From Humibacillus sp. (GTDB taxonomy: Bacteria; Actinomycetota; Actinomycetes; Actinomycetales; Dermatophilaceae): DNA of 64,000 nucleotides. The DNA lies in contig JAKDLG010000002.1 in NCBI GenBank assembly GCA_030452985.1, forward strand, positions 1 through 64,000, in the 5' to 3' direction. Shown here piece by piece: positions 1 through 10,680 of this stretch (positions within the stretch are counted from its first letter, which is position 1; every line of letters begins with the position of its first letter). The notes beneath the pieces were generated by a model. That model worked only from the letters and a program-made list of their open reading frames with translations. It ran no database searches and was not told the DNA's origin. Position numbers and translations under genes: made by a program.

Positions 1-55
1 ACCCCGCGAACGACTCGTTCGAGGTCGAACGCCGCGGTATGCCGAGGCGTTCGAC
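1..55. repeat. Palindromic repeat element, copy 1 (left of hisI)
   Basis: Bases 1-38 are the exact reverse complement of 559-596, so hisI lies between inverted copies. The element has two nested inverted repeats: CGAACGA/TCGTTCG around one base (7-21), and GTCGAACGCC/GGCGTTCGAC with a 12-base loop (24-33 and 46-55). A further GGCGTTCGAC half-site follows at 65-74. The element starts at the window edge and may extend further. It lies 3' of hisI and could end its transcript, but no T-run is seen. Confidence 0.75.
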
Positions 56-105
56 CACCAGCACGGCGTTCGACTCCGAAGGGCGCCTCAGGGGCTGAGT
101 CGCCC

Positions 106-483
106 CTACTCGCGTGTTCCGACTGCAGCCGGCAGCAACCGGGCGTCGAAGCAGGTGTGGTCACCGGTGTGACAGGCTCCACCCTCCTGGTCGACCGAGA
201 CGAGCAGTGCGTCGCCGTCGCAGTCGAGACGCACCGTCTTGACCCACTGGGCGTGCCCGCTCGTGTCACCTTTGCGCCAGTACTCCTCGCGGCTCCGGGA
301 CCAGAACGTCACCCGACCCTCGGTGAGGGTGCGGCGCAGCGCCTCGTCGTCCATCCACCCGACCATCAGCACCTCGAGGGTGTCGTGCTGCTGCACCACC
401 GCCGCCACGAGCCCGTGACGGTCACGCTTCAGCAGCTCGGCGATGGCGGGGTCAAGGCGGGCGTTCCCGGTGGCGTCGTCCAT
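106..483 (-). CDS. hisI: Phosphoribosyl-AMP cyclohydrolase HisI
   Basis: This 125-residue protein opens the purine ring of phosphoribosyl-AMP, the third step of histidine biosynthesis, in the cytosol. Family motifs are present: an [16 protein letters not shown] stretch in the middle, DCDGDALL, and the metal-binding HTGDHTCF near the C terminus. The length matches stand-alone HisI enzymes without a fused HisE domain, and hisE is a separate gene at 10697. The ATG at 483 follows an AGGAGAAG ribosome binding site. The gene stands alone between two copies of a palindromic repeat and is not joined to the other his genes of the window (hisF at 5757, hisE-hisG near 10 kb). Confidence 0.95.
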
Positions 484-522
484 GGTGACATCTTCTCCTG
501 GCGGTGAAAACCCGAGAAGTGT

Positions 523-596
523 GTCGAACGCCGCGCTGGTGACCGACCGCGTCGGTACACCGCGGCGTTCGACCTCGAACGAGTCGTTCGCGGGGT
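523..596. repeat. Palindromic repeat element, copy 2 (right of hisI)
   Basis: A perfect 13-bp inverted repeat (GTCGAACGCCGCG at 523-535, CGCGGCGTTCGAC at 561-573) is followed by the odd palindrome CGAACGAGTCGTTCG at 576-590. Bases 559-596 equal the reverse complement of 1-38. The element fills most of the space between hisI and the ABC exporter genes, so it would lie at the 3' end of the exporter transcript and within the hisI upstream region. Confidence 0.75.
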
Positions 597-620
597 GGGC
601 AGGGGTAGGTCAGGGGTGGG

Positions 621-2432
621 TCAGACGGTGGTCTGCTGGGCCACCCACGAGTCGTGCAGACGTGAGTACACGCCGCCGAGGCGTACCAGCTCGGTGTGGT
701 GACCGCGCTCGACGATGCGGCCGGCATCCACCACGATGACCTCGTCGGCCGCCTGCGCGGTCGAGAGCCGGTGCGCGATGGCGATCGAGGTGCGCCCACG
801 GGTGAGCGAGTCGAGGGCGCGTTGCAGCCTCACCTCGGTGCTCGGGTCGACCGCAGAGGTCGCCTCGTCGAGCACGAGCAGGTCGGGGTCGGCCAGGTAG
901 GCACGGGCCAAGGCCACGAGCTGTCGCTCCCCCGCCGAGAGCGACTCCCCGCGTTGGCCGACATCGGTGGCTAGGCCGAGCGGCAGGGTGGAGACCCACG
1001 GGTCGAGCCCGAGCTCGGTCAGGGTGAGCCGCACGTCGTCGTCGCTGGCGTCGGGGCGTCCGAACCGCACGTTGTCGAGCAGCGTGCCGTCGAAGAGGAA
1101 GCCCTCCTGCGGCACGAGCACGACGCGGGAGCGCAGCGTGGAGAACCGGATGCTGTGCAGGTCGGCCCCGTCGAGCTGCACCCTGCCGGTGGTGGGGTCC
1201 ATCAGGCGGGTCAGCAGCTTGGCCAGGGTCGACTTGCCCGAACCGGTCTCGCCGACGATCGCGACCCGGCTGCGCGGCGCGATGGTGAGGTCGATGTCGT
1301 GCAGCACCGGCTCCCCACCGGGGTAGGCGAACCCGACGCCACTGAACTGCACGGTGATCGGCCCACGAGGCAGCGTGACACCGCGCTCGCCCGGGTCTGC
1401 CACGTCGGCATCCGTGTCGATGATGCCGATCACGCGACGCCAGCCGGCCACGGCATTCTGCATCTCGTTGAGGATCTCGGTCGCCTGCTGCACCGGCTGC
1501 GTGAACAGGTTGACGAGGAAGAGGAAGGCGAGCAGCTCACCCAAGGTGAGGCTGCCCCTCGCTGCGAGCACGGTGCCCACGACGAGCACGACGGCTGTGG
1601 TCATGCCCGACACCAGCTGGCCGGAGGTGAAGGCGATCACCGAGCGGGCCTGGGCCCCGATGGCGGCCTTGCGGTGGGCCTCGACGGCAGCGTCGATGCG
1701 TTCGGCGGTGCGCTCCTCGACGCCGTAGGCCCGGATCGCCTGGGCGCCGACCACTGCCTCGGAAACGGCGCCGAGCATGTCGCCGACGCGCTCCCGGACC
1801 CCCGTGTAGGCGCGGCCGACGATGCCCTGGAACCTGCGGATGATGAAGAACAGCGGCACGAAGCACACCCACACCACGAGCCCGAGCAACGGGCTGTAGA
1901 CCACCATCAGAACCGTGGCGAGGGTGATCTGCGCGACGTTGATGATCAGCATCAGGCCGCCGAACTGCACGAACGTCGAGATGGTGTCGACATCGGAGGT
2001 CACCCGGGAGACGAGCGACCCGCGTCGCTCGGTGTTCTGGGTCAGCATCGCCAGGTCGTGGATGTGCCGGAACGCCTTGGTGCGCAGCGTCGCCAGGCCG
2101 TTCTCGGACGCCTGGAAGAGCCTGACGTTGACGAAGTAGGCGGAGAAGGCCGTGACCACGACCCCGGCCAGGGCGACCCCGATGTACATCGCCACACTGC
2201 CGAGGTCAGGGCCCCCGTCGGCGAGCAGCCCCTCGTCGGTGATGCGCTGGACCACGAAGGGCACCAGCACACGCCCCAGGGTCGAGAGCACCGCCAGCAT
2301 GACGGTGACCCAGATTCCCTTCTTCAGCTCGGGTGAGAGCACGAAACCCCGCTTGAGCGTGGCCCAGGTCGACATCTCGGTGCCCGAGGCGATGCCGTGG
2401 TGCTCGACGATCGGCTGGCCGCGCATGCTCAT
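621..2432 (-). CDS. ABC exporter half-transporter, catalytic-site subunit
   Basis: This 603-residue protein has an N-terminal six-helix exporter domain and a C-terminal nucleotide-binding domain. Walker A GETGSGKST lies near residues 394-402, Walker B ends LVLDE with the catalytic Glu near 523, and the switch His of IAIAHRLS is near 554. The signature motif is degenerate, LSAGE instead of LSGGQ (near 498). It overlaps the upstream half-transporter by 4 bases (ATGA), and a GAGGAGG site precedes the ATG at 2432, so I did not use the longer reading frame from 2519. In family terms it pairs with its neighbour as a heterodimeric multidrug or lipid exporter. The substrate cannot be read from sequence. 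Confidence 0.88.
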   Translation of the reverse strand: MSMRGQPIVEHHGIASGTEMSTWATLKRGFVLSPELKKGIWVTVMLAVLSTLGRVLVPFVVQRITDEGLLADGGPDLGSVAMYIGVALAGVVVTAFSAYFVNVRLFQASENGLATLRTKAFRHIHDLAMLTQNTERRGSLVSRVTSDVDTISTFVQFGGLMLIINVAQITLATVLMVVYSPLLGLVVWVCFVPLFFIIRRFQGIVGRAYTGVRERVGDMLGAVSEAVVGAQAIRAYGVEERTAERIDAAVEAHRKAAIGAQARSVIAFTSGQLVSGMTTAVVLVVGTVLAARGSLTLGELLAFLFLVNLFTQPVQQATEILNEMQNAVAGWRRVIGIIDTDADVADPGERGVTLPRGPITVQFSGVGFAYPGGEPVLHDIDLTIAPRSRVAIVGETGSGKSTLAKLLTRLMDPTTGRVQLDGADLHSIRFSTLRSRVVLVPQEGFLFDGTLLDNVRFGRPDASDDDVRLTLTELGLDPWVSTLPLGLATDVGQRGESLSAGERQLVALARAYLADPDLLVLDEATSAVDPSTEVRLQRALDSLTRGRTSIAIAHRLSTAQAADEVIVVDAGRIVERGHHTELVRLGGVYSRLHDSWVAQQTTV

Positions 2433-4255
2433 CGCGACACCTCCTCGTCGGCGGCGACGGCGTCTCGTTCCGCTGACTCGCGGGCGTAGGCCGTGACGAG
2501 CCGTTCGTAGCCGGCGCACCGGGAGAGCAGCTGGTCGTGCGAGCCGTGGTCGATGACCCGGCCCTGCTCGAGATAGACGACCTCGTCGGCGAGCAGGATG
2601 GTGGCCATCCGGTAGGCGACGACGAGCACGGTGGTGCCGCTGCTCGCCGCACGCAGCCGCGAGAGGATCGCCTGTTCGACGCTCGGGTCGACGGCCGAGG
2701 TCGCGTCGTCGAGGATGAGCAGCTGCGGCTCACGGATCACCGCACGGGCGAGGGCGATCCGCTGCCGTTGCCCGCCCGAGAGGCTGGCCCCGCGCTCCCC
2801 CACGTGGGTGTCGAGCCTGTCGTGGAGGTCGGCCACGAAGCCTGCTGCCTGCGCAACGTCGAGGGCTCGCCAGACCGTGTCGTCGTCGTGGTCGACACCG
2901 AGGGTGATGTTGCCGCGGACGCTGTCGTCGAACATGAAGGTCTGCTGGGCCACGAGGGCGGCCACCTCGGGGATGCCGCCGTGACGCACCTCGCGCAGGT
3001 CGATGCCATCAACCAGCACCGCCCCAGTGTCGGGGTCGACCAGCCGCATCATCAGGTTGGTCAGCGTCGACTTGCCGCTGCCGGTGGGGCCCACCAGCGC
3101 CACTGTCGAGCCGGGCGCCACGTCGAGGCTGACGTCGACGACCGCCGGGTTGAGGTCTGCATCGCCCTGCTCGGTCTCGATCTCGTAGGCGTAGGACAGC
3201 GACTCCGCCTGCAGGTGGCCGGCGGCGCCGGTCGGCAGGCCGCGGGCCCCGTACTCCATGCTGCCCTCCGCGTCGAGCACCGCAGAGACGCGCTTCCAGC
3301 CGACCACGGCGCGAGGCAGCTCGGCGAGCACCCAGCCGAGGGCGCGCACCGGGAAGGCGAGGATGGAGAAGAGGTAGGCGATCTGCACCACCTCTGCGGG
3401 CGAGAGCAGGCCACTGCGAACCCGCAACGTGCCTACCAGGAGCACCGCGAGCGTGCCGATCGTGGGGATCGCCTCGATGGCGGGGTCGAACCGCCCGCGC
3501 GTGCGGCCCACCTCGATGTTCGCGTCACGCAGCTCGTGGGTCACGTCGCGGAAGCGGTCGGCCTCGTGGTCCTCGCGGCCGAGCGACTTGACGATGAGAG
3601 CCGCCTCGAAGCTCTCGTGGGCGACCTCGGAGACGTCGGCCCGCAGCTGCTGGGCCCGCGTGACCCGCGGCGACATGGCGCGCTGGAAGGCGACGTTGGC
3701 GACGAAGAGCATCGGGAAGACCGTCAGGCCCACGACGGCGAGCCACGGGTCGACGATGACCATCTGCAGCACTCCGAAGACCAGCATGACCACGACGCCG
3801 AGCGCCATCGGCAAGGGCCCGAAGATGTTCCAGGTGGCCTCCACATCGGCGTTCGCGTTCGACAGCAGCTGCCCCGAGGGGTGCTTGTGGTGCCAGCTGA
3901 GCGGCAGCTTCAGATACTGACGCGTCACCTGACGGCGGTACATCGCCCCGAGGTTGAACATGGCCACACCGCCCGCCAGGCGGCGGCCGATGACCCCGAT
4001 GATGGTGGTCAGCACCACGGCCGACATGACTCCACCGATGAACCACAGCTGCCCGGCCGTCACCGATCGGGCCGCGATGGCAGGGGTGACCGCCCGGTCG
4101 ACGACGTAACCGATCGCCGCCGCCGTGAGGCTCGTCATGATGCCGTAGACCACGCTGCCCACGACGGCGAGGGCGAACCAGCGTGGCTGGCCTCTGATGC
4201 CGCGCCGGATGACGCTCCAGCCCTCGAGCAGGGTCGAGGGGGTGGCCGTGCTCAC
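2429..4255 (-). CDS. ABC exporter half-transporter, degenerate-site subunit
   Basis: This 608-residue membrane ABC protein has an exporter domain followed by an ATPase domain. Walker A GPTGSGKST is at about 389-397 and a canonical LSGGQ at about 492-496. The residue after Walker B is Asp instead of Glu (LILDD, 516-517), and the switch His is Tyr (VVAYRMA, residue 548). Its own site should therefore be non-hydrolytic, while its intact signature completes the active site of the partner encoded downstream. This is the known arrangement of heterodimeric exporters such as TM287/288 and BmrCD. A GTG start at 4255 follows AGGGAGA. It is first in the two-gene operon. Confidence 0.88.
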   Translation of the reverse strand: MSTATPSTLLEGWSVIRRGIRGQPRWFALAVVGSVVYGIMTSLTAAAIGYVVDRAVTPAIAARSVTAGQLWFIGGVMSAVVLTTIIGVIGRRLAGGVAMFNLGAMYRRQVTRQYLKLPLSWHHKHPSGQLLSNANADVEATWNIFGPLPMALGVVVMLVFGVLQMVIVDPWLAVVGLTVFPMLFVANVAFQRAMSPRVTRAQQLRADVSEVAHESFEAALIVKSLGREDHEADRFRDVTHELRDANIEVGRTRGRFDPAIEAIPTIGTLAVLLVGTLRVRSGLLSPAEVVQIAYLFSILAFPVRALGWVLAELPRAVVGWKRVSAVLDAEGSMEYGARGLPTGAAGHLQAESLSYAYEIETEQGDADLNPAVVDVSLDVAPGSTVALVGPTGSGKSTLTNLMMRLVDPDTGAVLVDGIDLREVRHGGIPEVAALVAQQTFMFDDSVRGNITLGVDHDDDTVWRALDVAQAAGFVADLHDRLDTHVGERGASLSGGQRQRIALARAVIREPQLLILDDATSAVDPSVEQAILSRLRAASSGTTVLVVAYRMATILLADEVVYLEQGRVIDHGSHDQLLSRCAGYERLVTAYARESAERDAVAADEEVSR

Positions 4256-4309
4256 GTGGCGTTCTCCCTGCTGCGTTGACGTGGCGGGTGCTCTCGTCGA
4301 GACTCGTTG

Positions 4310-4325
4310 CGAGTTGTACTACTCG
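4310..4325. promoter_or_regulatory. Possible operator upstream of the ABC exporter operon
   Basis: CGAGT/ACTCG half-sites flank six bases (TGTACT), about 55 bp upstream of the first exporter gene. Repressor sites often look like this near drug exporters, but no regulator gene is adjacent and the half-sites are only 5 bp. Weak call. Confidence 0.2.
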
Positions 4326-4410
4326 AACAGTCAGCGTCTCACGACCCCCCGACAACGGGCACCGGCACGCCGGTTATTCCGGAGGCCGCTGGCCGGGTCG
4401 ATAGTGCTGC

Positions 4411-4932
4411 TCAGAGCCCGGTCGGAACCCAGTAGCGACAGCTGCCGGCGCGTTCGTCCTCCAGCCTCCCGCCGACCCTCTCGATGGTGCGGGCCGACGC
4501 CACGTTGTCGGGGTCGCAGGTGATGAGTACGCGGTCGAGGCCGCGCGCCGACGCCATCGAGAGCGCGAGACGAACCGCGGCGGTCGCCACGCCCCGCCGG
4601 CGGAACCCGGGTTCGACGGCATACCCGAGGTGGCCCCCGACGACGAGTAGAGCGGGGTTGAGGGCGTGACGCAGAGCGACGGTCCCGACGACGCGGTCAG
4701 CGTCGACGACCCAGCGGTAGGAGCTGGGCACCCTGCCCTCGGGCAGCTCCACGTCGTCCCTGGCCTGCTCGACCAGCCAGTCGACCCACACCGCGAACAC
4801 GGCGGGGTCACGCAGCCGGCCGCGATCTTCCGCGCGCAACGACGACCCGTGGATCACCTCGGCCCCGAACGCGTCGACCATGGTCCACCACGAGTCGGCC
4901 AGGTCGACGGTGGGGCGCACGAGCTCGATCAT
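4411..4932 (-). CDS. GNAT-family N-acetyltransferase
   Basis: This 173-residue cytosolic protein has the GNAT fold. Its acetyl-CoA motif is visible as VEPGFRRRGVATAAV in the middle, followed by the helix region VLITCDPDNVASARTIERVGG, which resembles RimJ-like and aminoglycoside-type acetyltransferases. The ATG at 4932 gives a normal family length. It is a single gene, divergent from the TIGR03085 gene at 5007, with 74 bp between the start codons. The substrate is not predictable. Confidence 0.85.
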   Translation of the reverse strand: MIELVRPTVDLADSWWTMVDAFGAEVIHGSSLRAEDRGRLRDPAVFAVWVDWLVEQARDDVELPEGRVPSSYRWVVDADRVVGTVALRHALNPALLVVGGHLGYAVEPGFRRRGVATAAVRLALSMASARGLDRVLITCDPDNVASARTIERVGGRLEDERAGSCRYWVPTGL

Positions 4933-5006
4933 CCACCGAGGGTACGGGTCGCCCGATCACCCTCCACCGGGTTCTCGGCCGCCGCCCGAATGGTTGGATG
5001 GTCGAT

Positions 5007-5645
5007 ATGACACGCCACGCACAGTCCGAACGTCACGCGCTCTGCGACGAGCTGGACCGTCTTGGGCCCGAGGCCGACACCATCGACGACGGATGGCGCG
5101 CCAAGGACCTCGCCGCGCACCTGCTCATCCGCGAGACCCGGCCCGACCTCTTGGCCGGCCTCTTCATCCCGGCGCTCGCCGGCCGAACCGATCGGGGCAT
5201 GGCATCGGCGGCGGCGGGCGACTTCGGTGCGCTGGTGCAGAAGATCCGCTCGGGGCCGCCGGTCTGGAACCCGATGGCGATCCCGGCGGTCGACGAGAAG
5301 GCCAACCTCACGGAGTTCTTCGTCCACTTCGAGGACCTGCGGCGGGCCCAGCCCGACTGGACCCCCCGCAGCCTGTCCACCGAGCTGCAGCAGTCCCTCT
5401 GGGCCGCCCTCAAGTCTGGCTCGAAGCTGCTGCTACGCAAGGCGCCGACGGGCGTCGTGCTGATCGCGAACGGTCTGGGGCGCCACGCCGCCAAGGCACC
5501 GGGTGCCGGCGGCACGGTCGTCGTGCGCGGGCCGGTGGGTGAGCTGGTGCTGTTCGCGTTCGGCCGTGAGCGGGTGGCCCAGGTCACCTTCGAGGGCGAC
5601 GACGACGACGTGGCCGCGCTGCGGGGTGCGAACTTCGGCGTCTGA
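5007..5645 (+). CDS. TIGR03085 family protein (DinB/maleylpyruvate isomerase-like fold)
   Basis: This 212-residue protein begins with a metal-dependent DinB-like four-helix domain typical of actinobacterial TIGR03085 proteins. Visible family features are an N-terminal ERHALCDEL segment, DGWRAKDLAAHLLIRETRPD with the conserved His, and a central WNPMAIPAVDEKANLTEFFVHFEDLRRA segment with a further His. Biochemical function is unknown for the family; thiol-dependent (mycothiol) chemistry has been proposed for related proteins. I chose ATG 5007 over ATG 4998 because GGATGG lies at a suitable distance from 5007. No operon partner is evident. Confidence 0.8.
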   Translation: MTRHAQSERHALCDELDRLGPEADTIDDGWRAKDLAAHLLIRETRPDLLAGLFIPALAGRTDRGMASAAAGDFGALVQKIRSGPPVWNPMAIPAVDEKANLTEFFVHFEDLRRAQPDWTPRSLSTELQQSLWAALKSGSKLLLRKAPTGVVLIANGLGRHAAKAPGAGGTVVVRGPVGELVLFAFGRERVAQVTFEGDDDDVAALRGANFGV

Positions 5646-5756
5646 ACCCCCGGACAAGGCCGCATCAAGCTGCGGGTCAGTCTGCGGTTGGGGTTGTCCT
5701 GACGACCACCAGCGCCAACTGATCTGCCGACAGATCGGGTCGGACGGCAGCGAATC

Positions 5757-6530
5757 TCAGCGAACGGTGATGCCCGCCTCGCGAAGGGCGGCCTTGACCT
5801 GGGCGACCGTCAGCTCGCCGAAGTGGAAGACGCTGGCGGCCAGCACGGCATCCGCACCGGCTGCCGCGGCCGGCGCGAAGTGCTCGGCCCGCCCGGCACC
5901 ACCACTCGCGATGAGAGGCACCGTTACCGCGGCGCGCACCTGGCGGATCAGCTCGAGGTCGAAGCCGTTCTTGGTGCCGTCGGCATCCATCGAGTTGAGC
6001 AGGATCTCGCCCGCCCCGAGCTCGGCGGCGCGCGCGCACCACTGCACGGCGTCGAGGTCGACGGCGGTGCGGCCGCCGTGAGTGGTCATCACGAAGTCGT
6101 CGGTGGGTCGACCCTCGTCACCTCGCCTTCGCCGCACGTCGGCCGAGAGCACCAGCACCTGGGCCCCGAAGCGGTCGGCGATCTCGGCGATGAGCTCGGG
6201 GCGCGCGATCGCCGCGGTGTTGACGCCCACCTTGTCGGCGCCGGCGCGAAGCAGCCGGTCGACGTCGTGGGCCGTGCGAACGCCGCCTCCGACCGTGAGC
6301 GGGATGAACACCTGCTCGGCCGTGCGCCGAACCACCTCGAAGGTCGTCTCGCGGTTGCCGCTGCTCGCGGTGACATCGAGAAAGGTTAGCTCGTCGACGC
6401 CCTGGTCGGCGTAGCGCTGGGCGAGCTCGACGGGGTCACCGGCATCCTGCAGGTTCTCGAAGTTGACGCCCTTGACGACGCGACCGGCATCGACGTCCAG
6501 ACAGGCGATCACGCGGGTGGCGACGGGCAT
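5757..6530 (-). CDS. hisF: Imidazole glycerol phosphate synthase cyclase subunit HisF
   Basis: This 257-residue TIM barrel uses ammonia from HisH to convert PRFAR into imidazole glycerol phosphate and AICAR. The catalytic Asp residues are seen in [16 protein letters not shown] near the N terminus and in LSADVRRR mid-sequence. The phosphate-binding loops LTVGGGVRT and LIASGGAG are intact. The frame is open upstream to 6665, but homology begins at [13 protein letters not shown], so the start is ATG 6530. HisH is not in the window. The gene is divergent from the P-loop kinase at 6644, sharing about 110 bp of upstream DNA. Confidence 0.95.
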
Positions 6531-6643
6531 GAGCCCAATGTAGGCGAGCAGCCGTCGGGTGCCGGCACCGCCAGCCATCGCCCGGCACCGACCGGACCGA
6601 TCCGGCATCCTGGATGAGCGGCCTCCGCAGTAGGGTCGCCGCC

Positions 6644-7258
6644 ATGTGGGACGACATCTCGGCATCCCCCGAACCCGAGCGTGTCGCGACCATCACGGCG
6701 CTCGCGGTGGCGGCCACGCCTCGGTGCAGTTCAACGGTCGTGGTCGCCATCGACGGAACGAGCGGGGCCGGCAAGACCACTTTGGCGCAGGGCGTGGTCG
6801 CCGCGCTCGCCGCACTGCCTGGCGAGCCCGGCGGTGCTTCCACCACCGATGTCGGGCTCGTGCACATGGACCATCTCTACCCGGGCTGGGACGGCCTCCA
6901 GGTGGCCCCGGACCTGCTGACCACCCAGGTGCTCGCGCCGATCGCTCGCGGCGAGCCCGCGGCCTACCGGGTCTGGAGCTGGCTGCGGAACGAGTGGAAG
7001 GGCAGCCGCGCCGTGGCACCGTCGCGGTTCCTCGTGGTCGAGGGCTGCGGTTCGAGCGTCATGCCGGCCGGGGCGTATGCCGCCGTGCGGGTGTTCATGG
7101 AGGCCGACCGAGGGCTGCGGATGGAGCGTGGCATCGCCCGTGACGGTGAGGCCTACCGGCCGAACTGGCAGCGATGGGCCGACCAAGAGACCGCGCTGTT
7201 CGACGCCGACGGAACGAGACGGCGAGCCGACCTCGTCATCGACACCTCTAATGTCTGA
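6644..7258 (+). CDS. Uridine-kinase-like P-loop NTPase/kinase
   Basis: This 204-residue cytosolic protein has a Walker A motif, GTSGAGKT, about 30 residues from the start. A downstream [11 protein letters not shown] segment resembles the substrate-binding Asp region of uridine kinase-like proteins. VVEGCGSS and an arginine-rich [16 protein letters not shown] lid-like segment follow. The fold class is well supported, but whether the substrate is a nucleoside is not known. ATG 6644 is preferred over ATG 6614 because AGGG lies about 9 bases upstream. The MFS permease gene starts 3 bases after the stop, suggesting co-transcription. Confidence 0.75.
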
Positions 7259-7261
7259 GAG

Positions 7262-8545
7262 ATGCAGGATGTGCGGCCGCCCGAGCCCGGGCCTGGAGTG
7301 AGCGACGGGTCCGGCAGGCTCACCGCTCGCCGGGCGAGGGTCCCCGGCCTGGTGCGACCGCTGCCTGCCGTCTGGGTGATGGCCGCGGTCCTGGTCGCCG
7401 TGGCGACCAACCTGCGCATCGCAATCACCAGCGTTCCCCCGCTGCTCGACGTGATCTCCGCCGACCTGGGCCTCTCCCACGCCGCGGCCGGTGCCCTGAC
7501 GACGCTCCCGGTGCTGTGCATGGGCCTGTTCGCCCCCGCGGCAAGCCCCTTGGCGCATCGCTTCGGCGCCGTGGCGACCGTGCTCGCCGCCGCCGTCGCC
7601 GTGCTGCTCGGCACGCTCAGCCGTTTTGAGGGTCAGCACGTGGTCGTGCTCTACGTGGGTACCTTCGTGGCCGGAGTCGGCATCGCCGTGGGCGGCACGT
7701 TGCTGCCGCGCTTGGTCAAGACATTCTTCCCTCCCGAACGGGTGGGGCTGGTCACCGGCCTCTACATGCTCGCCATGATGGCCGGCGCCGCCGGCAGCTC
7801 GGCAGCGTCGGTGCCACTGGCCGCCCTGTTCGGCTCGTGGCAGGCCTCGCTCGGTTCGTGGAGCCTCCTCGCGCTGCTGGGGGCTCTCGCCTGGGCCCCG
7901 TTCACCCGGCGGGCCAACCCCCACAGCCTGAGCGGCAGCGTCGACACGCCTGGCACGAATACCGCTGCGCGCCTCCCGTGGCGCCACCCGACGGCCTGGC
8001 TGTTGGCCGGCTACTTGGCCATGCAGTCGTGGGCCTTCTACTCGACCGTGACGTGGCTGGCGCCCACCTACGTCGAGCACGGCTGGTCACCGGAGTCAGC
8101 CGGCTACCTCGCAGCGGTCTTCAGCGGGTCCCAGATCGTGTCGGGCCTGCTCGGGCCGGTGCTGAGCGACCGGGTACGCGACCTCCGCCTGCTGCTGGTG
8201 CCGTTCGCCGCGATCGGCATCGGCGGCTCGCTCGGGGTCTGGCTGGCGCCCGAGGCGGCGCCCTGGGTCTGGGCTATCGTCATCGGGCTCGGCCAGGGGG
8301 CGGCCTTCGCGCTCGGCCTGGTGCTGCTGGTGCGCTACGCCGCCACCCCGCAGGCGAGCGGCCGCCTCAGCGGCATGGTCTTCCTCTGCTCGTACACCGT
8401 GGCCTCGGTGGGGCCGCTCACCATGGGAATGCTTCGCGACGCGACCGGCAGCCTGTCGCTGGTGTGGGCGGTGCTGGCCGCGGCAGGGGCCATCCAGCTG
8501 CTGGTCGCCGTCGCCTTGCGGCCCGACCTGCGCCGGGTGGCGTGA
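7262..8545 (+). CDS. MFS transporter, CynX/NimT-like
   Basis: This 427-residue integral membrane protein shows about 12 hydrophobic segments. The first carries VATNLRIAITSVPPLL, a hallmark of the cyanate/nitroimidazole (CynX/NimT) branch of the major facilitator superfamily. The loop between the two halves is charged and proline-rich (near residues 210-235). It follows the P-loop kinase gene by 3 bases and is probably translated from the same mRNA. Members transport small anions or amphiphiles, and the substrate here is unknown. A palindromic repeat with a short T-run follows the stop and could act as terminator. Confidence 0.85.
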   Translation: MQDVRPPEPGPGVSDGSGRLTARRARVPGLVRPLPAVWVMAAVLVAVATNLRIAITSVPPLLDVISADLGLSHAAAGALTTLPVLCMGLFAPAASPLAHRFGAVATVLAAAVAVLLGTLSRFEGQHVVVLYVGTFVAGVGIAVGGTLLPRLVKTFFPPERVGLVTGLYMLAMMAGAAGSSAASVPLAALFGSWQASLGSWSLLALLGALAWAPFTRRANPHSLSGSVDTPGTNTAARLPWRHPTAWLLAGYLAMQSWAFYSTVTWLAPTYVEHGWSPESAGYLAAVFSGSQIVSGLLGPVLSDRVRDLRLLLVPFAAIGIGGSLGVWLAPEAAPWVWAIVIGLGQGAAFALGLVLLVRYAATPQASGRLSGMVFLCSYTVASVGPLTMGMLRDATGSLSLVWAVLAAAGAIQLLVAVALRPDLRRVA

Positions 8546-8613
8546 GCAGCGGCATCCAGCACTGCCGGGAGCCGTCGGGAGCCACGCACGGAGCTCGAAC
8601 GACGAGCTGGTGA

Positions 8614-8670
8614 GCGAACGCGCTGGCACACCGGCGCGTTCACCCTCGAACGAGTCGTTCGAGGTGGGGT
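8614..8670 (+). terminator. Palindromic repeat element, copy 3, possible terminator between convergent genes
   Basis: GAACGCGC/GCGCGTTC (8616-8623 and 8634-8641) is followed by a 21-bp odd palindrome (8644-8664) with 10-bp arms and then TGGGGTTTT. It shares the 17-mer CTCGAACGAGTCGTTCG with copy 2, and with copy 1 in reverse. It lies between the convergent MFS and flavin reductase genes. The trailing Ts on the plus strand suggest Rho-independent termination of the MFS transcript. Confidence 0.55.
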
Positions 8671-8672
8671 TT

Positions 8673-9299
8673 TCAGCCCCAGTAGTCGTCGAGCAGCTCG
8701 TCCGAGTGTGCGGCCTCGTCGGCCGAGCCGCTGGCCCGGCGCTCGGTGACGCTGAACCGGCCCCGATAGAAGAGCATCGGCCGGCCGGCCTCGGCGTCGT
8801 CGAGGCCGAGCACCCGACCGATCACGACGTCGTGGTCACCGGCAGTGTGCACCTTCTCGACCTGACAGTGCACCCGCACGAGGGCACCGGGCAGGCTCGG
8901 GCCGCCGTCGGGCGACGGCTCCCACGGCAGGTCGTCGAAACGCAGCCCGGACGGTCGTCCGAACCGTTCGACGAGGTCTCGTTGAAGGTGGCCGAGCACG
9001 TTGACCGTGAACCGACCGGTGTCTCGGATCAGCGGCCAGGAGCGGCCACGGTGGTCGGCGCAGAACAGCACGAGGGGCGGGTCGAGCGACACCGAGGCGA
9101 ACGACTGGCACGCGAAGCCGACCGGGTGGCGGGTCGGCGCGTAGCCGGTGACGACCGTGACACCAGTCGCGAAGTGGCCGAGAGCGTGGCGCATCCGCTC
9201 CGGAGTGGGCGGCTGAGCCGGCGCAGCGGATGAAGCAGCAGATGAAGTCGGGCCCGGTGCCGGGCCGGGGGTCCGGTCGGGGGGCTGTGAGACGGTCAC
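8673..9299 (-). CDS. Flavin reductase family protein (FMN-binding split barrel)
   Basis: This 208-residue protein has a proline/alanine-rich N-terminal tail of about 30 residues, then the flavin_reduct domain: FATGVTVVTGYAP, VGFACQSFASVSLDPPLVLF and the FTVNVLGHLQRDL segment are characteristic. Such proteins reduce free FMN or FAD with NAD(P)H, often for a partner monooxygenase, which is not present here. A GTG start at 9299 overlaps the stop of the PH-domain gene (GTGA). It is last in a run reaching up to hisE and the riboflavin operon, so flavin supply and use may share transcripts, but that link is inference. Confidence 0.88.
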   Translation of the reverse strand: MTVSQPPDRTPGPAPGPTSSAASSAAPAQPPTPERMRHALGHFATGVTVVTGYAPTRHPVGFACQSFASVSLDPPLVLFCADHRGRSWPLIRDTGRFTVNVLGHLQRDLVERFGRPSGLRFDDLPWEPSPDGGPSLPGALVRVHCQVEKVHTAGDHDVVIGRVLGLDDAEAGRPMLFYRGRFSVTERRASGSADEAAHSDELLDDYWG

Positions 9300-9808
9300 G
9301 ACCGGTCGTCATCCGGCTCGTCGGGCTCGCGGGCCTCACCGAACGCCTGCACCAGTGCCGCGAGCCGCGACGCCTCGCGGCTGCCGGCCGCGCCGTCGGC
9401 CTTCTGGATCGCCATGACGGCCAAGGTGTCGCCGTCCTCGAGGTCGAGGCTCACCCACGGCTCCCCCCCGCCGAACGAGATGCCGACCACCTCCGACCAC
9501 TCGAGGGTGCGCGACACCACGAGGTTGCGTACCAGCAGCCCCTGCCGGCTGGGTACGGCCCGGATGGAGGCGTAGCGCCAGGCCAGCACCGCGATGACGA
9601 CCCCGAAGGCGAAGAGCATCAGGCGGTCTCCAATGCCCCAACGGTCGTCGACCTGGGACGGGATGATGACGGCGATGACGCCGAACACGGCCAGCGAGCA
9701 CCACCCGGCCCACAAGGCCACCACGCGCGCCCGTCGTGGTCGGAACGGAGCGAGCGCATCCCCCGGGACCTCGGCCCCCGCGGCCGAGTCGTTCTCGGGC
9801 GTGGCCAT
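9296..9808 (-). CDS. PH-domain membrane protein (two transmembrane helices)
   Basis: This 170-residue protein has a short acidic cytosolic N terminus and two hydrophobic helices (about residues 32-50 and 65-82). A bacterial PH-like domain follows (VPSRQGLLVRNLVVSRTLEWSE...), as in actinobacterial low-molecular-weight PH proteins. The segment VVGISFGGGEPWVSLDLEDG fits the core strand pattern. Its start overlaps the hisG stop by one base (TGATG) and its stop overlaps the flavin reductase start, so it is translationally coupled on both sides. Function is unknown; the conserved place next to hisG in related actinobacteria is from memory. Confidence 0.75.
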   Translation of the reverse strand: MATPENDSAAGAEVPGDALAPFRPRRARVVALWAGWCSLAVFGVIAVIIPSQVDDRWGIGDRLMLFAFGVVIAVLAWRYASIRAVPSRQGLLVRNLVVSRTLEWSEVVGISFGGGEPWVSLDLEDGDTLAVMAIQKADGAAGSREASRLAALVQAFGEAREPDEPDDDRS

Positions 9809-10680
9809 CAGAGCCGGCAGGCTGCGATGTCGGTGACGAGGATCGCGCGAGCCCCGAGGTCGTAGAGCTTGTCCATCAACCGGTCGCGGCCGGCCTGCGG
9901 CACCATGGCGCGGACCGCAACCCAGGCCTCGTCCTGCAGCGGAGACACGGTGGGCGACTCCAGGCCGGGGGTCAGCTCGCAGGCCCGGTCGACAAGGCTC
10001 CTGGGGCAGTCGTAGTCGAGCATCACGTAGGTGCGGGCGGTGATGACACCGGCGAGGCGCCGCTCCAGCACCCGCACCCGGTCGGCCTGGCCGGGCCGGT
10101 CACCTCGGATGAGCACCGCCTCCGAGCGCAGGATCGGCTCGCCGAACACCTCCAGCCCCTGGCTGCGCAGGGTCGCGCCGGTCTCGACGACGTCGGCGAT
10201 GACATCGGCCACACCGAGCGTGATTGCGGTCTCGACCGCGCCGTCCAGACGCACGACCTCGGCCGTGATGCCTCTGGCGCCCAGGTCGACGCGCACCAAC
10301 CCGGGGTAGGAGGTCGCCACCCGCCTGCCGTCGATCTCGGCAACCGTGGCGACATCGCCGGGCACAGCGGCATACCGGAAGGTTGACCCACCGAACCCGA
10401 GCGCCATGATCTCGATGGCTTCCGAGCCCGAGTCGAGCAGCAGGTCGCGGCCGGTGAGCCCGGCATCGACCGTGCCCGAGCCGACGTAGACGGCGATGTC
10501 GCGCGGGCGAAGATAGAAGAAGTCGACGTCGTTCTCGTGGTCGGTGACCACCAGCTCCTTGCTGTCGCGGCGGGTGCGGTAGCCCGCCTCGCGCAGCATC
10601 TCGATGGTCTCGTCGCTGAGGGCTCCCTTGTTGGGAACGGCGATGCGCAGCCGGGTGATGCCGGCCGTATCGGTCGTCAT
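9808..10680 (-). CDS. hisG: ATP phosphoribosyltransferase HisG
   Basis: This 290-residue enzyme joins ATP and PRPP, the committed and histidine-inhibited step of histidine synthesis. LRIAVPNKGALSDETIEML opens the catalytic domain. DVGLTGRD-type sequence (DAGLTGRDLLLDSG) and DVIADVVETGATLR supply the PRPP/ATP site. The C-terminal part (SPTVSPLQDEAWVAVRAMVP) is the regulatory ACT-like domain of long-form HisG, so no HisZ is needed. hisE lies 16 bases upstream in the same orientation. The start is ATG 10680. Confidence 0.95.
   Translation of the reverse strand: MTTDTAGITRLRIAVPNKGALSDETIEMLREAGYRTRRDSKELVVTDHENDVDFFYLRPRDIAVYVGSGTVDAGLTGRDLLLDSGSEAIEIMALGFGGSTFRYAAVPGDVATVAEIDGRRVATSYPGLVRVDLGARGITAEVVRLDGAVETAITLGVADVIADVVETGATLRSQGLEVFGEPILRSEAVLIRGDRPGQADRVRVLERRLAGVITARTYVMLDYDCPRSLVDRACELTPGLESPTVSPLQDEAWVAVRAMVPQAGRDRLMDKLYDLGARAILVTDIAACRL

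Follow-up and report, generated by a model that had tools for sequence, protein, structure and literature searches.

A dispersed 66-bp palindromic element of Humibacillus and an AbiEi-like, nuclease-like gene as its probable partner

The window analyzed here is a stretch of 64,000 nucleotides from a Humibacillus sp. draft genome (contig C169:1-64000; hereafter, the source genome). Near its left end lies a gene that we take to be hisI, the name given to it in an earlier sequence-only reading of this DNA and one consistent with known HisI proteins. This gene is bracketed by two copies of a 66-bp element, and a third copy lies farther right, between convergent genes (Table 1). Base 1 of the window is also the start of the contig, 6 bp beyond copy 1, such that the left copy sits at an assembly end. 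Copy 2 separates hisI from what is presumably an ABC-transporter-like gene, with its intact palindrome towards the stop codon of that gene; the gene to the left of copy 3 is, we presume, transporter-like. Both transporter names were assigned from the sequences.

The sequence-only reading had reported a perfect inverted repeat around hisI, and we found that bases 1-38 indeed match the reverse complement of 559-596 at every position; in a pairwise comparison, copies 1 and 2 are identical at 65 of 72 bases. The 17-mer CTCGAACGAGTCGTTCG occurs without mismatch at 574-590 (+), 8645-8661 (+) and 7-23 (-). When up to three mismatches were allowed, the window contained six matches (three places, each on both strands), a number that none of 100 dinucleotide shuffles reached. 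At all three places the full repeat unit extends over 66 bp without a gap. The third copy, previously placed at 8614-8664, thus exists, but its position was slightly off: the real span is 8596-8661. The two-copy bracket of hisI is also present, in the same orientation, in Humibacillus sp. DSM 29435 (L109), and therefore is no assembly artefact. In this one congener compared, hisI itself also has the same orientation, which speaks against the proposal that the inverted copies permit inversion of the gene.

Table 1. Element copies and adjoining genes in the window.
Feature	Position	Strand	Remark
66-bp element copy 1, type A	7..72	-	3' of hisI; ortholog L109 2069-2134
15-bp odd palindrome CGAACGA-N-TCGTTCG of copy 1	7..21	.	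15-mer match
28-bp dyad of copy 1 (larger stem-loop of the sequence-only reading)	26..53	-	alignment columns 20-47
hisI (presumed), bracketed by copies 1 and 2	106..483	-	ORF
66-bp element copy 2, type A	525..590	+	ortholog L109 2600-2665
28-bp dyad of copy 2	544..571	+	alignment columns 20-47
15-bp odd palindrome of copy 2	576..590	.	15-mer match
ABC-transporter-like ORF (presumed) adjoining copy 2	621..2519	-	rough ORF caller start 2432
Transporter-like ORF (presumed) left of copy 3	7262..8545	+	rough ORF caller start 7379
66-bp element copy 3, type A, between convergent genes	8596..8661	+	ortholog L109 10614-10679
28-bp dyad of copy 3	8615..8642	+	alignment columns 20-47
15-bp odd palindrome of copy 3	8647..8661	.	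15-mer match
ORF right of copy 3, stop 11 bp from element	8673..9299	-	rough ORF caller start 9194

Each unit consists of a 15-bp box, 4 bp, a 28-bp dyad, 4 bp and a 15-bp odd palindrome. The left unit of 19 bp reads CGAACGMCGGGTTGGTGAG or, in some copies, forms the full inverse palindrome; the dyad reads CGAACGC-NNN-GGTNTACC-NNN-GCGTTCG and is followed by ACCT and then by the odd palindrome. Half-sites of the form CGAACG thus recur with a 19-bp period and in a dyad arrangement; they resemble the LexA box, with one base more between them. We aligned 51 rows from 47 places (type A), comprising 25 rows from the source genome and 26 from DSM 29435 (G017), in 66 columns without a single gap. Four near-palindromic places were entered twice, once per orientation, and two source-genome places in which the 15-mer has no dyad on its left were omitted, as were copies cut by contig ends. 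The sites are therefore neither confined to the window nor irregular in spacing, the alternative that the sequence-only reading had allowed for. Because copies were picked by an intact 15-mer (source genome) or a 25-base pattern (DSM 29435), the conservation of columns 42-66 is partly by choice. By reading of the alignment, the conserved blocks are spaced about 9-11 bp apart. In a one-contig genome (G178), many matches measured 85 or 104 bases, which corresponds to 66 bp plus one or two 19-bp modules. Extra 19-bp units or tandem copies at L029 2071-2179, L034, L041 and L128 likewise show that the number of modules varies. Separately, in the matching copies L016/L129 and L034/L132, one species has G and the other has C as the middle base of the odd palindrome.

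The palindromic structure could reflect either a DNA site or an RNA hairpin. Among the type A copies, the dyad positions were paired in 86.0% of cells, compared with 88.1% in shuffles, and the covariation score was equalled or exceeded by 500 of 500 shuffles. The inner pairs (columns 27-29 with 38-40), which played no role in picking the copies, were formed in 41.8% of cells. Within the type A copies, then, we saw no stem kept by compensatory change. Across types and genera, two-sided change did exceed that in shuffles (for example, from G-C to T-A at columns 31/36); such change would be expected if a protein that recognizes the dyad changes its specificity, and it would fit a hairpin too. The outer 6-7 pairs hardly vary and may form a hairpin. 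A search of Rfam with five element-bearing loci gave no match.

These data bear on the possibility, raised by the sequence-only reading, that the repeats are transcription terminators. Bidirectional hairpin terminators would account for a location between convergent genes; moreover, two of the three window copies fold better than their shuffles (z of -3.7 and -3.3, and of -1.8 for 515-605), and a short TTTT follows copy 3. Nevertheless, we give this explanation very little credence: type A copies lack covariation, the sequence blocks and their spacing are fixed, and a scan of window positions 1-10000 found no terminator-like pattern at the three copies (elsewhere in the same interval two were found, with 1.6 expected). 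Fixed blocks in the absence of RNA covariation among type A copies are as would be expected of a protein-bound DNA site. This third suggestion of the sequence-only reading, a site for a DNA-binding protein, is supported, and a candidate protein is proposed below.

To describe the distribution of the element, we turned to whole genomes. In the source draft genome (5.55 Mb, 358 contigs), the 15-mer CGAACGANTCGTTCG was found at 31 exact and 8 one-mismatch places, while the reversed control occurred once per strand; the repeat is thus, as had been proposed, a dispersed, lineage-specific palindromic family. Of 32 complete scored elements in this genome, 26 were type A and about 6 were of other types, and a second subfamily, type B, was present in both Humibacillus genomes. 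For 20 of the 31 exact copies, the contig ends no more than 200 bp away; the element evidently breaks the assembly. Stem-forming repeats seem to be the cause, and a gene framed by a pair of such repeats could be lost as a short contig.

Beyond the genus, at E 0.01, the type A model matched 51 of 186 family genomes, of which 38 had 1-4 matches, many of them weak. A more general model (R2) matched 23 of the 186 at E 1e-4, 13 of them with at least 9 matches (both strands counted, best 28 per genome scored), and within a single genus (g50) the number ranged from 2 to at least 28 per genome. Among the copies listed, the middle triplet of the 15-bp box differed among genera: AGT in Humibacillus and G098, GTT in G178, GTC in G042 and G043, and CGG or similar in g50 and G044. 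We also considered a link to viruses and rejected it: eight IMG/VR stretches matched a loose pattern, the four listed model alignments contained long insertions (best score 26.5 bits), and the stricter type A pattern had no match in IMG/VR. Plasmid records searched with the type A consensus and phage records searched with the g50-type consensus likewise gave no match.

The copies have also changed place. In DSM 29435, the prmC gene (named from its sequence) carries an intact 66-bp element in frame, and the predicted protein is 24 residues longer than that of G044. The element is absent from prmC in five other genera (G178, G172, G098, G044, G042); the source-genome prmC is cut by a contig start, and its present part contains no element. 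Conversely, twelve source-genome loci bear an element that had no partner among the DSM 29435 loci compared, a set from which we excluded two type B copies of L141 that had partial matches. Eleven of these twelve loci could be placed in DSM 29435 by their flanks (L018 could not). In four of them both flanks aligned (L038, L043, L144, L145), and DSM 29435 had no element; in six judged from one flank (L019, L021, L022, L032, L036, L140), none was recognizable; and at L031, DSM 29435 keeps just the 15-bp box, in a promoter-like region. At yet another site, one and the same gene gap holds a type B element in the source genome and a type A element in DSM 29435 (L142/L123). The copy within prmC and the copies missing at matching sites bear out the suggestion that this is a mobile palindrome: the element family has evidently been mobile.

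Two of these sites deserve separate description; the gene and promoter names at both were assigned by reading the sequence. At L031 1984-2049 and its counterpart L189, both Humibacillus species have the 15-bp palindrome, with a difference of one base, immediately after a promoter-like TTGACC-N17-TACCGT in the vicinity of a tmk-like gene, with the remainder of the element in the source genome only; this palindrome may be an operator. The source-genome element at L043 1989-2054 is situated close to the 3' end of a dnaA-like gene and has no counterpart at the DSM 29435 site.

Copies that have remained at matching sites proved to be constrained in a specific way. Across 17 orthologous pairs of complete type A copies, 18 of 714 positions in block columns had changed (2.5%), compared with 12 of 119 in intermediate columns and 53 of 289 (18%) in variable columns (Fisher p about 1e-16). 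Block columns were defined as those conserved among source-genome paralogs, and their rate is somewhat flattered by that choice; when columns 42-66 were left out, columns 1-41 alone still gave 14 changes at 357 block positions and 52 at 272 variable ones (p about 8e-10). In the 60-bp flanks on each side, 239 of 927 aligned positions had changed in 8 of the 17 pairs. The low rate in block columns relative to variable columns and flanks therefore indicates that the blocks are kept at their sites. Apart from L031 and perhaps L022, we saw no half-decayed copies. This in-place constraint is stronger than a purely selfish repeat needs, and it counts against the explanation that we favor below.

The position of the copies relative to genes was similarly nonrandom. 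Using a rough ORF caller, we examined 70 Humibacillus elements, of which 11 were called inside a gene and 16 had one neighbour missing; the remaining 43 lay between 19 convergent, 20 same-direction and 4 divergent gene pairs. The 72 elements of other genera gave 34, 30 and 2, with 5 inside genes and 1 open (29, 27 and 2 of 64 when 8 places counted twice in overlapping loci were removed by hand). The pooled counts, which include the eight double places, were 53 convergent, 50 same-direction and 6 divergent, against a background of 30, 130 and 33 among 193 gene pairs from the sampled loci, element sites included. The enrichment between convergent genes is strong, as computed with the doubles and with orthologous sites that are not independent. 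Copies thus lie mostly behind genes and between convergent genes, in agreement with the earlier remark that they occupy gene 3' ends in both orientations. We also considered a mark of replication orientation or terminus and rejected it, as no orientation rule was seen by eye in the one-contig genome.

Which protein might act on these sites? The sequence-only reading had advised a search for a REP-associated transposase. The RAYT-type (Y1) transposase family PF01797 was not found in the source genome. Of the 186 family genomes, 4 contain it, and R2 matched none of these 4; one of them, G180, gave two weak matches with the type A model. We rejected a RAYT/IS200-type transposase as the mobilizer, since PF01797 was not found in any of the 23 genomes with R2 matches. 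A different candidate emerged when the 264 proteins encoded within 600 bp of elements were clustered: one gene lay beside elements in four genera. This gene has an element on each side in the source genome, DSM 29435, G173, G177, G098 and G178. It adjoins a pntB-like gene in the first four of these and in G098, and an APC-type transporter gene in G098, G173, G177 and G178 (both names taken from the sequences).

A profile of the six proteins from these genomes (A3) found homologs in all 20 genomes searched, which had been picked mainly for their elements. Nine homologs were close (E < 1e-130), and 8 of these 9 genes were bracketed by two elements; the ninth (L211) begins close to where its contig ends, and two elements lie on its other side. 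For L205 and L207, one bracket copy was cut or extended and was recognized by the repeat in the opposite flank and a covariance model rather than by the 66-bp scan. The close gene was present in 9 of 13 element-rich genomes and in 0 of 7 element-poor ones (p 0.005, 20 genomes); the element-rich genomes in which no close homolog was found are G043, G170, G172 and G176. Over the homologs, the bracketed units measured 1.05-1.47 kb and contained a single gene of about 0.95 kb each. The best shared terminal repeat was inverted in 27 of 36 units and direct in 9, an assignment that is partly ambiguous because many of the repeats are palindromic. By eye, the up to 14 bases listed outside each unit end showed no evident target-site duplication.

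The product of the bracketed gene, about 306 amino acids long, combines an AbiEi-like N-terminus with a DUF559/PD-(D/E)XK-like C-terminus. In Pfam searches with the first four proteins, AbiEi_4 matched the N-terminal part of all four and DUF559 or REase_MTES_1575 the C-terminal part of three, all below the cut-off, the fourth having no nuclease match. With 52 homologs at E 0.01, AbiEi_4 matched 41, MTES_1575 15 and DUF559 15, and one PADLOC AbiEi model matched 50. Aside from AbiEi models, DUF559 and MTES_1575, the Pfam scan of the 52 homologs returned four families matching one member each, and no known transposase domain; NCBIfam gave no match for the two proteins tried. Ten columns are invariant over the 52 homologs, and five of these are acidic or lysine (E199, D232, E243, D245 and K249, in 52 of 52); given the general features of the fold, we take these five to be a PD-(D/E)XK-type active site. 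A profile search of the PDB gave nothing convincing (best E 0.44), and a single-sequence structure model was too poor for use (mean pLDDT 43.6), with 0 Foldseek matches at E 0.001.

In a tree of the nine close homologs, L206, L207, L208 and L211 form clade A (support 0.87) and L203, L204, L205, L209 and L210 form clade B (support 1.0). The bracketing elements had G31 together with C36 in 7 of 7 scanned for clade A and in 1 of 9 for clade B; one clade B homolog, L210, has an A-like core on one side. Judged by these sequences, protein clade and element type go together. The source-genome gene belongs to clade B and the DSM 29435 gene to clade A, and both adjoin the pntB-like gene; the source genome has mostly type A elements, yet its sole close homolog is of clade B. 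In that genome, a former clade A gene may have given way to the present one, or may be hidden in an assembly gap.

More distant homologs have repeats of their own. Private repeats lie on both sides of L218 (68 bp) and L220 (71 bp), and L219 has a 19-bp-periodic array. When the two 350-bp flanks of a gene were compared with each other at E 1e-5, a common repeat emerged for 13 of the 30 family-set homologs and for 2 of 150 control genes; when the six homologs that gave rise to the idea (L203-L208) were removed, 7 of 24 were bracketed at the same threshold. In a class-wide draw of 393 genomes, 58 matched at E 1e-25; among the matches listed there were 30 loci, one of which is the source-genome gene, leaving 29. 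Of these, 23 were bracketed and 6 were not, and the 29 homologs are related to each other and hence do not represent 29 independent events. Among neighbour genes at family and class loci, 1 of 48 was bracketed. The shared repeat was inverted in 21 of 23 class-wide and 6 of 13 family-set cases, with an identity of up to 55/55 (L243).

These private repeats seem to resemble one another within protein clades: AATGATCA[CT]GTT in L243, L250, L257 and L258, and a similar sequence in L242 and L248; GACCACGT in L239, L246 and L261; GCAACACACCGAG in L218 and L220; and a TCGCGCGCT motif in L213, L225 and L226. Exceptions are L255, which belongs to the first of these clades and has no bracket, and L256, which lies elsewhere in the tree and also has a TGATCACGTT motif. 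The homologs L240 and L251 have long repeat arrays (138-161 bp) on each side rather than single palindromes. In small samples, no solo copies of the other private repeats were found, either in 191 kb of G235 or in the same-genome loci examined for six other homologs.

We conclude that the repeats are probably scattered 66-bp binding sites whose cognate protein is the AbiEi-like, nuclease-like protein, the gene for which is itself bracketed by such sites, the whole forming a pair of the REP/RAYT kind. That such sites also frame the predicted nuclease gene points to a partnership between repeat and nuclease in which the protein is of an unexpected type. The AbiEi-like domain would bind the 66-bp element, and the nuclease domain, or its ancestor, would cut DNA and start the copying of the bracketing site to new places. 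The cell would tolerate bound copies behind genes or benefit from them, perhaps as a roadblock in both directions where genes converge; as the copies that landed keep their blocks, a bound protein probably still does something there.

The same protein could instead be an autoregulator with a regulon: it would bind its own operators as well as chromosomal sites that insulate or block convergent transcription, the nuclease would mobilize nothing, and the copies would have spread by unrelated recombination or gene transfer. The constraint on the element blocks in place and the enrichment between convergent genes both agree with such a role, and, in excerpts of PMC7319586, the AbiEi family is described as autoregulating through inverted repeats. 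We nevertheless consider it unlikely: an operator needs no near-identical inverted copy behind the gene, and 23 of 29 class-wide homologs (among the matches listed) have a shared repeat in both flanks; moreover, the insertion of a whole unit into a coding frame needs a copying process.

Alternatively, the elements could be miniature derivatives of an ordinary insertion sequence whose transposase was missed, with the AbiEi-nuclease gene a passenger or a hot-spot neighbour. Their mobility and the failure to find a Y1 transposase are compatible with this idea; PF01797 was the sole transposase family in the genome-wide search, and an autonomous copy could have been lost where the assembly breaks at elements. 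It appears quite improbable all the same, as the bracket recurs class-wide in the AbiEi-nuclease family and the repeats largely track the protein tree. 

Our favored pairing of bracketed gene and binding sites leads to a broader proposal, which is plausible but tentative: single-gene mobile elements with an AbiEi-type domain, a restriction-like nuclease and private palindromic ends might exist throughout the Actinomycetes, and in some lineages their repeats might have given rise to dozens of solo protein-binding sites that selection maintains at gene ends, an analogue of RAYT/REP built from an antitoxin and a nuclease. Repeats of the REP type for which no transposase is known pose an unsolved problem, and the bracketed gene offers a testable candidate from an unexpected protein family. 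If the proposal holds, then AbiEi/DUF559-type genes would be parts of repeat-propagating units, and the private repeat beside each gene would predict the binding site of its protein. Since the sites look selected in place, the choice between a parasite and an adopted chromosomal site becomes directly testable.

Among known systems, the closest likeness is to REP/RAYT. Excerpts of PMC3733652 describe REPtrons and TIRtrons, in which repeats lie between convergent or same-direction genes, with some inside genes, and a gene is bracketed by its own repeat. The present system shares with these the short intergenic palindromes, mostly in convergent or same-direction gaps with some intragenic, and the repeat-specific genes bracketed by the repeat; according to the same excerpts, CGTC REPs seem to have no dedicated transposase. 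In contrast to REP/RAYT, the bracketed protein here is AbiEi-like and PD-(D/E)XK-like rather than a Y1/HUH transposase, the type A consensus contains, by reading, neither GTAG nor CGTC, and the site is a 19-bp modular, 66-bp unit conserved as DNA blocks. Our search of open-licence PMC yielded no literature that connects dispersed repeats with DUF559 or AbiEi proteins.

Insertion sequences and their miniature derivatives offer a second comparison. A unit of 1.05-1.47 kb with one gene and terminal repeats, accompanied by short non-autonomous copies elsewhere, resembles an insertion sequence; in contrast to one, no known transposase domain was found in the 52 homologs, no target-site duplication is evident, and the terminal repeats are often palindromic themselves. 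The third comparison is with the AbiE type IV toxin-antitoxin systems, with which the protein shares the AbiEi-like N-terminal domain. AbiEi proteins, according to excerpts of PMC7319586, bind inverted repeats of 23 bp, two or four in number and separated by short gaps, in their own promoters, and a four-unit site with a 19-bp period would fit a relative of these proteins. Unlike AbiE, the protein described here has a C-terminal nuclease-like domain, and the bracketed unit leaves no room for an AbiEii gene beside the gene of about 0.95 kb; its sites flank the gene at either end and, in the case of types A and B, are scattered through the genome.
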